From Methylophilus sp. DW102 (GTDB lineage: Bacteria; Pseudomonadota; Gammaproteobacteria; Burkholderiales; Methylophilaceae): a stretch of 64,000 nt of DNA. The stretch is from NCBI RefSeq assembly GCF_037076555.1, contig NZ_AP029023.1, positions 930,001-994,000 of the forward strand, given 5' to 3'. Numbering within the stretch: position 1 is the stretch's first letter; each line of letters begins with the position of its first letter. Made by a program: the position numbers and the translations under genes. This document shows, piece after piece, positions 17,035 to 36,857 of the stretch. Under the pieces are notes generated by a model, which was given only the letters and a program-made list of their open reading frames with translations, had not been told where the DNA came from and searched no databases.

Positions 17035-18421
17035 CCGTATTTCCATCATCCTTGCCGTGGCTTTTGCAATGGGCGGTTGCTCGCTCGTGCCTGAATATTT
17101 CAGGCCCGCCGCGCCAGTGCCTGAGGTTTATCCAGGCCAGCCAGCAAGTGACACCGTGACCAATACACCTGTCACTGAGGCGCCGCCACTTAGCTGGCAA
17201 AGCTACTTTGCAGATGCTGATTTGCAGCGCCTGATTCAGGTTGGGCTGGCGCATAACCGTGACCTCAAAACCGCCGTGTTGCGCATGGATGAGGCCAAAG
17301 CCACCTATGGCGTACAAAAGGCCGACCGCCTGCCAACCATACAGGGCAACCTCAACTATGACCGTAGCCGCACCGTGTTCAGCTCCAGCCAGGCATTTGA
17401 GGCGGAGCTTTACCGCGTTGGTGTGGGTATTTCTGACTACGAAATCGATGTGTTTGGACGCGTGAAAAGTCTGACGCAATCCGCGCTGGAGCAATACCTT
17501 GCCGTGAGCGAAAACCGGCAAGCGGTACAAACCACGCTGATCACCGAGATTGCCACCCAATACGTCAATTTTTTAGCGATCAACGACCAGCTCAAGCTCG
17601 CCCAGCAAACGCTGGATGACCGTAAGCAAACCCTGCAACGCACCCAGCGCCGCTTTGAAGCCGGGCTGGATCAAGTGCTGGACGTGAAAGCCGCGCAAAT
17701 TCAGGTCGAGCAAGTGCAAGCGCAGCTCGCACAATGGCAGCGCCAGCTCGCCACTACGCAAAATGCCTTGTATCTGCTACTGGGCGAAACCTCACACCGC
17801 ACGCCACTGCCAGTCAAGCCGCTCGCCGCCTTGAAACTGGCCGACGTTACGCCAGGTTTGCCTTCCACATTGCTCACCAGACGTGCCGATATTCGTGCCG
17901 CCGAGCATCAGCTCAAATCCGCCAACGCCAATATAGGGGCTGCCAGAGCCGCGTTTTACCCACGCCTGCAACTCACCACCAATGTCGGTTTGGTCAATTC
18001 AGACTTCTCCAAATTGTTCTCGGATACAGGCAGCAACTACTGGGCCTTCAGCCCGCAACTGGTGCTCCCGATCTTTAACTACGGCCGCAACAAAGCCAAC
18101 CTCAACCTGGCCCAAGCCCGCCAGCATATCGAGGTCGTCAATTACGAAAAAACCATCCAGACTGCGTTTAAAGAAGTGATGGATGTGCTTAGTACACGCA
18201 CAGTGATTGCCGAAGAGTTTGCCGCCAGAGAACGTTTGCGAGAGCTGGAGAGCAGTCGCTTGCAACTGGTGAAACGCAAGCTTGATCAGGGACTGGTGAC
18301 TTATTTAGAGTTGCTTGATGCACAACGCAGCGTGTTGGACGCGCAGTCGCAAGCCGTGCAGATTCAACAGCAGGCGTTGCAGAATCAGGTAGGGTTGTAT
18401 AAGGCGCTGGGGGGAAGTTAG
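17024..18421 (+). CDS. Outer-membrane efflux channel lipoprotein (OprM/NodT-type)
   Basis: A 465-residue TolC-superfamily channel. The lipobox MGGC gives acylated Cys19. The start of the mature protein (VPEYFRPAAPVPEVYPG) and two repeated coiled-coil/strand halves (NIGAARAAFYPRLQLT in the second) match OprM-like factors. The start codon overlaps the 3' end of the pump gene by 11 bp, indicating translational coupling. It completes the tripartite pump. Confidence 0.93.
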   Translation: MKFSRISIILAVAFAMGGCSLVPEYFRPAAPVPEVYPGQPASDTVTNTPVTEAPPLSWQSYFADADLQRLIQVGLAHNRDLKTAVLRMDEAKATYGVQKADRLPTIQGNLNYDRSRTVFSSSQAFEAELYRVGVGISDYEIDVFGRVKSLTQSALEQYLAVSENRQAVQTTLITEIATQYVNFLAINDQLKLAQQTLDDRKQTLQRTQRRFEAGLDQVLDVKAAQIQVEQVQAQLAQWQRQLATTQNALYLLLGETSHRTPLPVKPLAALKLADVTPGLPSTLLTRRADIRAAEHQLKSANANIGAARAAFYPRLQLTTNVGLVNSDFSKLFSDTGSNYWAFSPQLVLPIFNYGRNKANLNLAQARQHIEVVNYEKTIQTAFKEVMDVLSTRTVIAEEFAARERLRELESSRLQLVKRKLDQGLVTYLELLDAQRSVLDAQSQAVQIQQQALQNQVGLYKALGGS

Positions 18422-18532
18422 ATTTTCACAAAAAGCGTGATTGACGGGTTTAGGTTTGTATTTTAGGATGGACTAAAATTTAATAACAATATGAAAATGT
18501 TAAATAAAGCCCTTAAGTCTTCAATCAAAAAA

Positions 18533-18585
18533 GCATCAATGACGGAATGTTTTCCGTCATTTAGGATGCCTACATTACGTTAGCC
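18533..18585 (+). other. Left boundary of cassette array: hairpin plus GTTAGCC
   Basis: GCATC-AATGACGGAA pairs with TTCCGTCATT-(TAG)-GATGC around a TGTT loop, a 15-bp stem with one three-base bulge. It is followed by GTTAGCC at 18579-18585, which fits the integron recombination core GTTRRRY. The next ORF starts four bases later. A matching RYYYAAC core upstream is not convincing, so this may be a degenerate attC or an attI-like remnant. Confidence 0.4.
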
Positions 18586-18589
18586 CATC

Positions 18590-18844
18590 ATGAATCGAGA
18601 ACATACTTTATTTCACTTACAAGAGGCTTCGGAAGAGTTGGCTCGTATGATTAATGAAATAAAAACCGACCAAAGTTATAGCTCGGGAGAGCTGTATGTC
18701 TCTATGGCGCATCTGTATCATCATATAAATACTGCTTGGAACGCTCGTGAAATATCTTCATCACAAGCTCAAGAATGTTCTGAAGAAAACTTCAAGTTAT
18801 GGCAGCAGTTTCCAACCGATATTGATTTAAGCAATGAGTCCTAA
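18590..18844 (+). CDS. Cassette-encoded small protein, unknown function
   Basis: An 84-residue acidic, soluble-looking protein (helical, with ASEELARMINEIK near the N-terminus and SSQAQECSEENFKLW near the C-terminus). I do not recognise the family. It has no membrane segment or signal peptide. It begins five bases after a GTTAGCC core, with no clear ribosome-binding site, and its stop codon touches the first base of an attC site. This is exactly the packing of an integron gene cassette. Base composition is AT-richer than the efflux operon before it. Confidence 0.6.
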   Translation: MNREHTLFHLQEASEELARMINEIKTDQSYSSGELYVSMAHLYHHINTAWNAREISSSQAQECSEENFKLWQQFPTDIDLSNES

Positions 18845-18955
18845 GGCTAACCCATCAGTCAAGCGGGACTGGCGAAAAGGTGCTTCTATGATATGTTTAT
18901 TAATAACGAGGGTTGAGCCACCAATGTCGCCAGCCCCTTACTTCAAACGTTAGGC
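18845..18955 (+). other. attC recombination site 1
   Basis: It starts with GGCTAAC (R'', RYYYAAC) and ends with GTTAGGC (R', GTTRRRY). Inside, AAGCGGGACTGGCG (18861-18874) pairs with CGCCAGCCCCTT (18928-18939), leaving unpaired bases as in L''/L' boxes. A variable terminal region of about 50 bases lies between. The 111-bp length is within the attC range. The site sits directly after the 84-residue ORF, in the same orientation. Confidence 0.78.
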
Positions 18956-18975
18956 CTCTTGACTACGGAGCAGCT

Positions 18976-19428
18976 ATGGTTAGCTTCATCAAAAAACTGT
19001 TTGGTTCAAACAAGGCTCAAGCTCCGCTTTATTTCAAGGATGCGGAAGCTGCTTTCCAATACGCCTGCCAATTTCTTTCGGCCGAGCTCACCAGCAAAGC
19101 GATCTTGCCTGCTTTGGTCGTAGACGCACGTGAGGCACTGGGCGCAGACAGTCCAGTCTTGCCTATGCCAAATGGAGGCCAAATGCTTGCTTTACGTGTT
19201 TGCGCTAAAGACGGCGGCTTCCTGGTGCTGGCCGGCACCATTTCCGCGACCGGCCCAACATTGCATCCTGGACATTTGGTTGCATGGCAAGCGGGTCAAC
19301 CGATTGAGCGCCAAGCAGAAGAGTTAAACAAGGATCCACGCTCAAATTGGGTCGGTGCGGTACTAGCCAAGCTAAAGCCCGAGTACACAGTCGGTCGTGG
19401 CTGGTCCATTGACGAGCCTTTCAAGTGA
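18976..19428 (+). CDS. Cassette-encoded protein, unknown function
   Basis: A 150-residue protein, family not recognised. It starts MVSFIKKLFGSNK, has a mixed alpha/beta pattern with a hydrophobic core stretch (GGFLVLAGTISATGPTL near residue 85) and ends with RGWSIDEPFK. There is no signal peptide or membrane helix. The start at 18976 has GGAG upstream; a reading frame extended to 18913 would run through the attC site and is rejected. It lies between attC 1 and attC 2 and forms cassette 2 (18950-19540). Confidence 0.65.
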   Translation: MVSFIKKLFGSNKAQAPLYFKDAEAAFQYACQFLSAELTSKAILPALVVDAREALGADSPVLPMPNGGQMLALRVCAKDGGFLVLAGTISATGPTLHPGHLVAWQAGQPIERQAEELNKDPRSNWVGAVLAKLKPEYTVGRGWSIDEPFK

Positions 19429-19461
19429 TGAACGCCGCAACGAATCTTGCATCTCGCACAA

Positions 19462-19546
19462 GCCTAACTGGGCGTTGCAGGGGACGCTCATACGTCTCAT
19501 CGCTTCGGTCACGCCATATGGGCGCCCCTGAACTTGGGCGTTAGTC
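19462..19546 (+). other. attC recombination site 2
   Basis: GCCTAAC (R'') at 19462-19468 and GTTAGTC (R') at 19540-19546 bound an 85-bp imperfect palindrome. GCAGGGGACGC (19477-19487) pairs with GCGCCCCTG (19522-19530) with one extrahelical A, as in attC L boxes. It follows the 150-residue ORF by 33 bp. Three bases after it begins the REP element of the transposase unit. Confidence 0.78.
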
Positions 19547-19548
19547 AT

Positions 19549-19573
19549 GTAGGGTGGGCAACTCGTTGCCCAC
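19549..19573 (+). repeat. REP palindrome, left flank of transposase gene
   Basis: GTAG followed by the palindrome GTGGGCAAC-TC-GTTGCCCAC: a tetranucleotide plus hairpin, the standard form of REP units recognised by RAYT transposases. An inverted copy lies at 20157-20181 and a diverged copy at 21213-21236. Confidence 0.8.
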
Positions 19574-19600
19574 GCGGTAATACTCACGTACAATTCCACC

Positions 19601-20113
19601 ATGTCACGTTATCGTCGCGCCAATACTGCTGGAGCCACTTACTTTTTTACAGTTGTGACTTACCGCAGGCAAAGATTTCTTTGTGATGATGTACGTGATG
19701 CGTTAAAACATGCCATCCAAAAAGTCCGTACTGACCTCCCGTTTACAATCGACTCATGGGTGTTGTTGCCTGACCATATTCATTCCATATGGACGCTACC
19801 ACCCAATGATGCAAACTTTGCGCTTCGTTGGCAACTCATCAAACGCTATGTAAGCCGTGCTTGCGGTGCGCCCTTAAACCATACTGAATGGATGTCAGCG
19901 TCCAAAACAAAACATCGTGAATCGACCATTTGGCAACGCCGTTATTGGGAACATCAAATTCGCGATGATAACGATTATGCAAAGCATATGGATTATTTGC
20001 ATTTCAACCCGCTTAAACATGGGTTGGTGAATAATGTGAAATATTGGCCTTATTCAACATTCACAGACATGTTAAAGCGGGCGTTTATGATGAGGATTGG
20101 GGTTTGGGGCTAG
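19601..20113 (+). CDS. REP-associated tyrosine transposase (RAYT, Y1/HUH family)
   Basis: A 170-residue single-strand transposase-like protein of the IS200/IS605 superfamily. It starts with RYRRANTAGATYFFTVVTY and has the metal-binding H59-x-H61 pair in LLPDHIHSIW. Candidate catalytic tyrosines Y126 and Y132 lie in DDNDYAKHMDYLHFNP, followed by LKHGLV. RAYTs process REP sequences; here inverted REPs flank the gene at 26 and 43 bp. The ORF is intact. It begins 55 bp after attC 2, so it may have landed in, or been carried by, the cassette array. Confidence 0.9.
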   Translation: MSRYRRANTAGATYFFTVVTYRRQRFLCDDVRDALKHAIQKVRTDLPFTIDSWVLLPDHIHSIWTLPPNDANFALRWQLIKRYVSRACGAPLNHTEWMSASKTKHRESTIWQRRYWEHQIRDDNDYAKHMDYLHFNPLKHGLVNNVKYWPYSTFTDMLKRAFMMRIGVWG

Positions 20114-20156
20114 ATTTTGTGGAAGGAGCGTTTGGTGACGGATAACGAGTTTACGC

Positions 20157-20181
20157 GTGGGCAACGAGTTGCCCACCCTAC
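20157..20181 (-). repeat. REP palindrome, right flank of transposase gene (inverted)
   Basis: GTGGGCAAC-GA-GTTGCCCAC followed by CCTAC, the reverse complement of the left unit including its GTAG tetranucleotide. The pair forms a BIME-like inverted arrangement around the transposase gene. Confidence 0.8.
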
Positions 20182-20227
20182 AGACTGAGCGACACCGCAA
20201 CGCGATTTCTTCAACATAGCGAGCATG

Positions 20228-20265
20228 AAATACGGGGTCAGGTCTCAAGACCTGGCCGCGTATTT
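20228..20265. repeat. Long hairpin with GGGTCAGGTCT motif downstream of RAYT
   Basis: AAATACG-GGGT-CAGGTCT pairs with AGACCTG-GCCG-CGTATTT around a two-base loop, an 18-position stem with one mismatch. GGGGTCAGGTCT-type words commonly accompany RAYT genes in proteobacteria (from memory). It lies in the 309-bp gap before the PEP-CTERM gene; the rest of that gap shows no coding signal. Confidence 0.55.
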
Positions 20266-20422
20266 TGCCATTTGACTACGGTGAAAAAGATACTTGAAAT
20301 ACACTTTGCAGTAACTTTGCTATAATCCTGTAGAAGTAGCATTTCATTTTTTGCTTTTGACGGGCTTGTAGAGGTTCTGGTTGCTTGAGCGCCCGCTGCT
20401 CTGATACTAATGGGAGAACTTG

Positions 20423-21064
20423 ATGTGGCCGATTAGATTTTTATTCGCCGTAGGACTGTTATCGCTAGCGGCGCCTTCTTCAGCCGATGTGATCCTGGCG
20501 CTCACACCTACCGCCAGGATCGACTTTGAGACGCAAGTAAAGATCACCTATACGTTGACCGGTAGGGCTAGCAGTCCTGGAGGGCAGAATGTAGGTGAAT
20601 TTATCTTCCGAATCGCGCCTATGAGTCTGCCCACCGCAGGCAATATAGCCTCGGTCTTTAATCCAACCATCGCACTTACCGGCCCCTGGGCGAATCCAAA
20701 TTTCGGCACACGTGGTGCCATTATAGCTGCTACTAATAGCAGAGTAGGTTTCGATGCATTCAATTCAGAACCGGGTAAGTTTAGTACGATCGATGCGACA
20801 GGTGGAGTTGTGGGCACATTTGACATAATCTGGAACCGTCTGCTTGCGGGCCAGTACGACGCGGCTATACCCGCTTCTGCGATGGGTGGTGTTTACTCGC
20901 TCACAACATCGGGTGACTTTGATTTCTCTCCAACCATTGCAACGTCCTCCGGTGTATCCACATTTATCACGGCGGTTCCTGAACCGGGATCGATGTTACT
21001 CATGGCGATTGGAAGTTGCGGATTGCTCTTGCGGCATCGTCACCAACAGAGAAACCGCCAATAA
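20423..21064 (+). CDS. PEP-CTERM sorted exported protein, unknown function
   Basis: A 213-residue protein with a signal peptide (FLFAVGLLSLAAPSSA) and a C-terminal PEP-CTERM signal: VPEPGSMLLMAIGSCGLLL followed by RHRHQQRNR. The body resembles a cohesin/beta-sandwich-like secreted domain (VGEFIFRIAP, VGTFDIIWNRLLAG). PEP-CTERM proteins are processed by an exosortase and usually go to the surface with exopolysaccharide. The ATG at 20423 has GGGAG upstream. It is a single gene in the accessory patch next to mobile elements. A second PEP-CTERM protein lies at 55210-56133. Confidence 0.82.
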   Translation: MWPIRFLFAVGLLSLAAPSSADVILALTPTARIDFETQVKITYTLTGRASSPGGQNVGEFIFRIAPMSLPTAGNIASVFNPTIALTGPWANPNFGTRGAIIAATNSRVGFDAFNSEPGKFSTIDATGGVVGTFDIIWNRLLAGQYDAAIPASAMGGVYSLTTSGDFDFSPTIATSSGVSTFITAVPEPGSMLLMAIGSCGLLLRHRHQQRNRQ

Positions 21065-21212
21065 GGTTCGACAACTGAAATGGATTCCGCCAATACGTAT
21101 CAACGACGCAAACGCAAGTGCGCGTCGAACAAGGTCGTGCACCAAAGTTCGCGGTCTGGTACTTTCGAAATGGTGGGGCACTCGCGCGCACTTGGTTACG
21201 ACCAGCCGAGTA

Positions 21213-21236
21213 GTAGGGTGGGCAATTGATTGCCCA
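21213..21236 (+). repeat. Third, diverged REP unit
   Basis: GTAGGG followed by TGGGCAAT-TG-ATTGCCCA, the same tetranucleotide-plus-palindrome design with compensating changes in the stem tip (AAT/ATT instead of AAC/GTT). It lies in the 347-bp gap before hflX, which otherwise shows nothing I can assign. Confidence 0.72.
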
Positions 21237-21411
21237 AGATTCATTTAAATGTGTGCAGTGATGCCAACTCATTAATCGCGACTATATCCATTTAGTCCCC
21301 GGACATACCCAAAACAATCCCCATTAACACTTTATCTCGCCACCCATAGTGGTGATTCCCGCATTTGCAGGTACTATCTGCCCTCTACCATTCAAGAAGC
21401 GTCGTTCCCTC

Positions 21412-36306: not shown

Positions 36307-36529
36307 GCAAAAGCCTATAACATCGTCATTTTCAAAAATCTGCTGCATGTATTTGCGTTAAAAACACCAGGCGTGCAAGCACATTTTGTGCGCGGCAAAT
36401 CGTTAAAAAATATTCCCCAATAAAAACAACCAGTTGCCCGTTGTCAATCAAAATAAATCAATATATTGTGTTTTCTTCAATTGAAAAGCCATAGATATTG
36501 TTTTATAGTCGCATCCATACGGTACGCTG

Positions 36530-36710
36530 AAGAGTGTCCTCTTCTGTGTTTAATAGGGAACCTGGTGCGTGAAACTGCGCAGGAATCACTAAACCAGGGC
36601 TGCCCCCGCAACTGTGATCAGCGAGTTGTTTGCTGCAATCGACGCCACTGAGTAAATTCGGGAAGGCACAAGCAAATAATGGTGACCTGAGAGCCAGGAG
36701 ACCTACCGTG
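36530..36710 (+). ncRNA. Cobalamin riboswitch upstream of nrdA
   Basis: Hallmarks of the AdoCbl riboswitch appear in order: AATAGGGAA near 36552, CAGGGCTGCCCCCGCAACTG (36595-36614), GCCACTG (36644), GGGAAGGC (36660), and the B12 box AGCCAGGAGACCTACC at 36692-36707. It ends about 150 bp before nrdA. B12 should repress the B12-independent class Ia reductase. Such control of class Ia RNR is known in some bacteria that also hold the B12-dependent class II enzyme. A T-run follows at 36711. GGTGACC at 36681 is complementary to GGTCACC at 36825, near the nrdA ribosome-binding site. Confidence 0.9.
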
Positions 36711-36857
36711 ATTTTTTTCTTGTTAACGTTTGAGGCGGGGTGTCCTCGGCAGATACGATTTTTCAGAATCGGGCTTGATATTGGGGTTGCTCGGCCTGAA
36801 AAATGTTGTCTATGCCACTTGTCGGGTCACCTTCGCTGCCGGAATTGGGAGCCCATA

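Follow-up and report, generated by a model that had tools for sequence, protein, structure and literature searches.

Background

In integrons, the integrase (IntI) recombines the attC site of a cassette, folded as its bottom strand, with an attI site. Groups of at least two attC sites with no intI nearby are described as CALINs, and in surveys of these elements attI sites outside class 1 were not sought, as far as the accessible part of PMC9024848 goes. According to the portion of PMC12444791 available, Xanthomonas integrons lost intI at ilvD while CALINs occupy seven other conserved loci, and a functional IntI can mobilize CALINs in trans. Recombination with integrase and attI carried on separate plasmids is reported from an assay in the available part of PMC9892861.

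The array considered here lies in a 64,000 nucleotide stretch of the Methylophilus sp. DW102 chromosome (genome G000), hereafter called the window. It resembles a CALIN in having at least two attC sites and no intI nearby, but differs in that an attI-like site and a predicted promoter stand at its start. Like a chromosomal integron, it shows the customary order of attI, predicted Pc and attC cassettes; unlike one, its intI is not adjacent, being 0.82 Mb away and of another lineage, and the locus does not qualify as a complete integron. The likeness to Xanthomonas consists of integrase loss and of arrays at conserved loci away from intI. However, the accessible text of PMC12444791 describes no attI at the distant CALINs and reads them as ancestral remains, whereas here each distant array has an attI and contents vary within the species. 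Insertion at attG sites (Loot et al. 2024, as cited in later papers) likewise places cassettes away from intI, although the target here is an attI homologue rather than a non-classical site. A literature search found no report of intI-less attI sites exchanging cassettes; it covered few subscription journals and is weak evidence of novelty. The phrase 'attI-like site' was met in a single integron paper, PMC10127599. A standard integron finder does not search for orphan attI sites.

A two-cassette array in the window

A first-pass annotation of the window, made from the letters alone, had described positions 18579–19546 as a two-cassette CALIN, in which each of two open reading frames has behind it an attC site of matching orientation. 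The list of reading frames and a covariance model bore this out. The features of the locus are:

18441–18584, forward strand: orphan attI-like platform of type A with promoter (79–94% copies in the genus; intI-adjacent homologues; alignment A3)
18441–18469, forward strand: predicted Pc promoter, TTGACG-17-TAGGAT (consensus scan, 9/12)
18540–18559, no strand assigned: palindrome TGACGGAATGTTTTCCGTCA inside attI (sequence)
18580–18949, forward strand: cassette 1, from the attI cut to the cut in attC1 (sequence, attC1)
18590–18844, forward strand: reading frame of cassette 1, 84 aa, predicted helical, function unassigned
18845–18955, forward strand: attC1 (GGCTAAC ... GTTAGGC), model R1 74.3 bits, E = 1.3e-18
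18950–19540, forward strand: cassette 2 (sequence, attC2)
18976–19428, forward strand: reading frame of cassette 2, 150 aa, predicted OB-like barrel, function unassigned
19462–19546, forward strand: attC2 (GCCTAAC ... GTTAGTC), model R1 18.5 bits, E = 0.009
19549–20181, forward strand: right border, a RAYT-like Y1 transposase gene (19601–20113) between inverted REP-like hairpins

Model R1 was built from 14 attC sites in two other arrays of G000 (12 from L033 and two from L035), with the window's own sites excluded; its calibration was short and its E-values are therefore rough. The annotation had proposed such a search, and on both strands of the 64 kb R1 returned exactly two matches at E ≤ 10, at 18845–18954 and 19462–19545. 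The stretch is a genuine two-cassette array. BLAST found six copies of attC1 elsewhere in the genome (101–123 bases, 81–93% identity), plus two of 31 bases. Taken alone, attC2 was a weak match, to which its position and orientation add support. Folding energies were close to those of shuffled sequences (bottom-strand z = -0.68 and -1.32), so that support for the attC sites comes from the covariance match. It is next to inconceivable that the palindromes are something other than attC sites and that both genes are ordinary: the weakness of attC2 and the modest folding energies would suit such a reading, but the score of attC1 and its near copies in other arrays exclude it for that site. An earlier scan, which combined pattern matching with RNA folding, recovered attC1 amid inverted repeats unrelated to it but missed attC2; the covariance model was used instead. 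Scanning the window against Rfam gave nothing at the array and one match elsewhere, a cobalamin riboswitch (36503–36724, 100 bits).

Neither protein matched a Pfam family above cut-off, which agrees with the annotation's view that both genes lack a recognised function and provides no pointer to the defence or stress role that it had suggested. Predicted models of both proteins gave no Foldseek match at E ≤ 0.001. The second frame encodes 150 aa from an inner ATG and is open from a TTG at 18913 (171 aa); its protein is predicted to adopt an OB-like barrel and had two plasmid matches at 28.6%. The name 'membrane-bound inhibitor of C-type lysozyme', attached by the source to two relatives, had no other support and was set aside. 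The annotation had also considered that the two genes might form a fixed pair without attC, against which two of the three genome loci in the alignment of the second protein (L118 and L119) were flanked on both sides by attC-like sites, as judged by eye; the third, L117, had degenerate attC-like sites only. The CALIN description was therefore sound in its two attC sites and the absence of a nearby intI, but incomplete, since the array starts at a promoter-bearing attI-like platform. The start given for it, 18579, is the attI cut, and the attI ahead of this point had been missed.

The attI-like platform and its locus

The 144 bases ahead of cassette 1 had a second copy at 810 kb on the same chromosome (79% over 143 bases). 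Matches at E ≤ 0.01 occurred in 14 of 22 genus genomes, some of only 25–37 bases, and in G012 the end of a contig fell inside the homologue. The homologue lay 15–116 bases from an integrase match in G020, G019 and G013, which is the position of attI; the window's platform matched the intI-linked attI at 72% over 143 bases in G020 and at 69% over 124 bases in G013. These alignments show that 18441–18584 is homologous to the attI-promoter DNA adjoining intI in relatives, and the platform is called attI-like on the strength of this homology. The 16 fuller copies (alignment A3) had few gaps and ran from TTGACG and TAGGAT through about 110 bases to the core, with the consensus GCCTACTTTACG^TTAGG; the expected cut in the window follows G 18579. 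Within the promoter boxes of these copies, T2, G3, A4 and G6 (first box) and T24, A25, G26 and G27 (second box) were invariant; the consensus scan by which the promoter is predicted returned 3 such sites in the stretch, where 1.5 would be expected. In G020 and G013, intI runs on the opposite strand and its first bases overlap the TTGACG box. In the window, the end of an efflux gene lies 19 bases ahead of that box, and intI is absent.

A chance genomic site of the attG type, entered through off-target IntI action, has precedent in the attG insertions of Loot et al. 2024, as cited in later papers, but is scarcely credible here; the insertion site is a conserved attI homologue, and that homology largely excludes it. 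Covariation in the attI_A palindrome (81.3% of cells paired) was not above shuffles (86/500; covariation score 64/500), and a structured attI is thus not claimed. Model R2 of attI_A scored 117 bits at the window, which was discarded as an independent test because R2 contains the window's own copy.

The neighbouring efflux gene was found at E ≤ 1e-100 in 15 of the 22 genomes. A fuller platform follows it in G000, G002, G006, G014 and G015, and a degenerate or truncated one in G001, G007, G009, G016 and G017, while a platform search behind the gene found none in G003, G004, G005, G010 and G021. No copy of the efflux locus had an intI (by IntI similarity search on the fuller copies). In related genomes, this platform is shown to occupy the corresponding locus with different cassettes behind it. 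The interval from the efflux gene to an HflX-like gene (18421–21349) was variable in the genus, with unrelated DNA in other species; in G003, the HflX-like gene lies within about 160 bases of the efflux gene.

At the right border, the RAYT-like gene scored 31.1 bits for PF01797 (cut-off 23). The element has two full copies in the genome, in the window and at 810 kb, each ending a type-A orphan site, and a stretch of about 640–656 bp at 90–93% identity was present downstream of 5 of the 14 type-A orphan sites in the comparison. In three places, the hairpin GTAG begins 9 bases past the G of the last GTTAG core. The right border in G002 differs from that in G000. Besides the window, orphan arrays with such a RAYT-like right border were L032 (the 810 kb copy), L033 (near 8384) and L085 (G014), and REP-like pieces were seen at 1171–1173 kb and 726 kb.

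Orphan sites in the genus and family

Among 29 orphan attI sites in 14 genus genomes, 28 showed no IntI similarity over at least 1.6 kb to the left and 4 kb to the right. The other, at 353 kb in G004, retained a piece matching IntI residues 4–52 at the expected place, which fits an origin of orphan sites by loss of intI. An attC match (E < 0.01) lay behind 22 of the 29. The seven others were G000 at 810 kb, the G002 efflux locus (where an attC-like site is visible by eye), G009 at 2276 kb, G001 C25, G013 C31, G019 C15 and G016 at 1507 kb. Decayed attI cores were seen at 810 kb in G000 and in G014. Kept apart from both A3 and the 29 sites were the degenerate or truncated efflux-locus copies (G001, G007, G009, G016 and G017) and G006 at 1034 kb; the sites read also leave aside the orphan matches G011 C15 and G008 at 276 kb, and the partial matches G000 1764669, G009 1970411 and G021 C339.

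Type-A copies at different loci begin to match at or next to TTGACG, and there are three of them in G002 and two in G000. These features would be expected if the attI-promoter segment were itself a mobile unit, copied to several loci and collecting cassettes where it lands. Such an origin is very unlikely: no enzyme, end repeats or target duplication was seen, and the intI remnants show that loss of intI alone can produce an orphan site.

In the family, 44 of 63 attI_A rows (E ≤ 1.1e-6) were counted as stronger type-A matches and compared with the intI rows of the genomes concerned, minus one G002 fragment. Fifteen were within 2.5 kb of intI, 19 were not near intI although the genome has one, and 10 were in genomes where none was found; many of these genomes are drafts, so that contig breaks inflate the orphan counts. 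Six orphans lay 0.44–1.34 Mb from intI in genomes of a single contig (G000, G008, G009, G109 and G114). The 19 rows dropped include both linked sites (G186, G143 and G145 C30) and orphan sites (the window, G004 and G006).

Six attI sites and one integrase in the chromosome

The chromosome of G000 contains six attI sites, recognised by homology, of three types; five have no intI beside them:

Type A: the window (18441–18584) and 810 kb, both orphan
Type B: one linked to the intI at 1769 kb, and a second at 1648 kb, orphan
Type D: 1178 kb and 1276 kb, both orphan; type D is the kind found beside intI in G001

The core is missing from a further type-B fragment, at 1764.7 kb. Across the 3.017 Mb chromosome, R1 gave at least 21 matches at E ≤ 1 (150 of 809 candidates scored), comprising 12 at 1173–1178 kb, three at 1276–1278 kb, three at 1648–1649 kb, one at 1768 kb, attC1 of the window, and a lone match at 2126 kb; attC2 fell below this list. 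Each of the five attC clusters read, the lone match at 2126028 being left aside, begins at an attI. The window array is an integron platform from which intI has probably been lost and in which the docking site has been kept, one of five such sites in the chromosome. At 810 kb, the attI has a mutated core, no attC match, and a broken cassette reading frame overrun by a RAYT element. The attI types resemble one another in the final bases ahead of the cut (GCCTACTTTACG, GTCTAATTAACG, GTCTACTTTACG and GTCTATATTACG), a similarity by which one enzyme might be able to use several of them.

No IntI similarity was detected by tblastn in the whole 64 kb, as the annotation had stated, and the search for an intI elsewhere that it advised located one, at G000:C1:1769134-1770063 (TIGR02249, 409 bits, cut-off 265). 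This is the sole full intI of the chromosome, 0.82 Mb from the window array and of a different lineage. Four weaker TIGR02249 matches, located at 343 and 2653 kb, scored far under the cut-off, and matches at that threshold occurred in 14/14 control genomes as well. The G000 protein was 57% identical to the IntI of G020 and matched the solved IntI 2A3V with 274 bits over residues 19–325. In both G000 and G002, Asn replaces the box-II His, the other catalytic residues being kept (by eye). Among 20 genus IntI, a set that leaves out the G012 IntI and the G002 fragments, box II had 12 His, 7 Asn and 1 Gln; the Asn type also occurs in G004, G015, G010, G016 and G003. Loci with Asn-type IntI were L001 (G000), L068, L070–L073 and L075, and no attI core was seen beside the Asn-type IntI of G003, G010 and G016. 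Between G000 and G002, intI had 22 synonymous and 7 non-synonymous changes (dN/dS = 0.085), and the gene thus looks constrained and unlike a pseudogene. The activity of the resident IntI is doubtful, both because the box-II His is absent and because the linked array is unchanged between G000 and G002. Besides its full intI, G002 has two broken integrase pieces (C7:540992-541393 and C7:721540-722337; L158 and L077), one of which adjoins a type-D attI. If the Asn form cannot use attI, changes at these sites need another enzyme (compare the broken pieces of G002) or homologous import of arrays.

Cassette differences between strains

Genome G002 is classified as the same species as G000. All five orphan loci of G000 have a counterpart there, and G002 has one more type-A site without a counterpart. 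Homology from the left ended 5–6 bases past the G^TT cut at the window and 3–5 bases past it at the other four orphans; it was 94–95% over long pieces, and 87% for the attI piece at 810 kb, where the comparison uses the decayed G000 copy. Right of the orphan arrays, homology returned at 95.6–98.5%. Between these borders there were only matches of 34–108 bases, on attC or REP-like sequence, and no common cassette body; at 1178 kb, the G000 array measured 4.9 kb and its G002 counterpart 2.1 kb. The intI-linked array was 97.5% identical over 13.5 kb, cassettes included. Contents therefore change at the G^TT cut, as at a cassette boundary, in 5/5 orphan loci and not in the linked array. The presence of different DNA behind all five orphans in a genome of the same species makes it likely that a recombinase encoded elsewhere still fills these sites.

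Sixteen cross-genome pairs, from two loci, were compared on either side of the cut. In 15 of them, the 30 bases past it showed lower similarity than the 30 preceding it; only G006/G014 departed from this (0.57 before, 0.64 after), and there the G014 core is decayed. From 30 bases past the cut onward, identity was 0.42–0.55 in 16/16 pairs, the level of unrelated sequence. Cassettes related to one another recur in different genomes behind attI sites of differing type, both intI-linked and orphan. Identity was 92.5% over 467 bp between G000 (type-D orphan) and G009 (type-B orphan), 92.9% over 481 bp between G004 (orphan) and G009 (linked array), and 83.6% over 360 bp between the G000 type-D orphan and the linked array of G020, which is of type A. 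This comparison lists matches of at least 170 bp, and no cassette of that length was common to two arrays of one genome. Dips in identity adjoin several attI sites, and are compatible with weak non-coding constraint as well as with array import.

Discussion

In the window, the two cassettes follow a conserved attI-like site that has a predicted promoter but no intI beside it, and they were probably inserted by an integrase acting in trans. An ancestral integron would have lost intI while keeping attI and Pc as a platform; an IntI, which may be the resident one, one since lost or one in a donor strain, would have joined the folded bottom-strand attC of a cassette to the window's attI, and the predicted Pc would transcribe cassette 1. 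Confidence in this is held at that level by the Asn form of the enzyme, by the possibility of another enzyme or of homologous import, and by the ambiguity of the identity dips. The seven orphans without an attC match, the decayed copy at 810 kb and the lack of a cassette of at least 170 bp common to arrays within a genome also count against it.

An integron fossil, in which platform and cassettes are inert and strains differ because homologous recombination has swapped whole arrays through conserved flanks, would account for the absence of intI nearby, its remnant in G004 and the broken intI of G002, and equally for the decayed attI at 810 kb and in G014, the identity dips beside attI sites and the box-II Asn of the resident IntI. 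This is unlikely, since some IntI must still have assembled the donors' arrays at the same orphan attI; moreover, promoter boxes and core are kept across species, and the five orphan loci differ where the linked array does not.

The chromosome might, as a tentative suggestion, be regarded as holding a distributed integron: several attI-promoter slots of differing lineages, mostly without intI, would be expressed in parallel and share one cassette pool, served in trans by an integrase of another lineage, and many CALINs may be unrecognised slots rather than dead integrons. Should orphan attI sites retain promoter and core and continue to exchange cassettes, the genome as a whole, rather than a single locus, would be the working unit, and the first, best expressed position could be held by several cassettes simultaneously.
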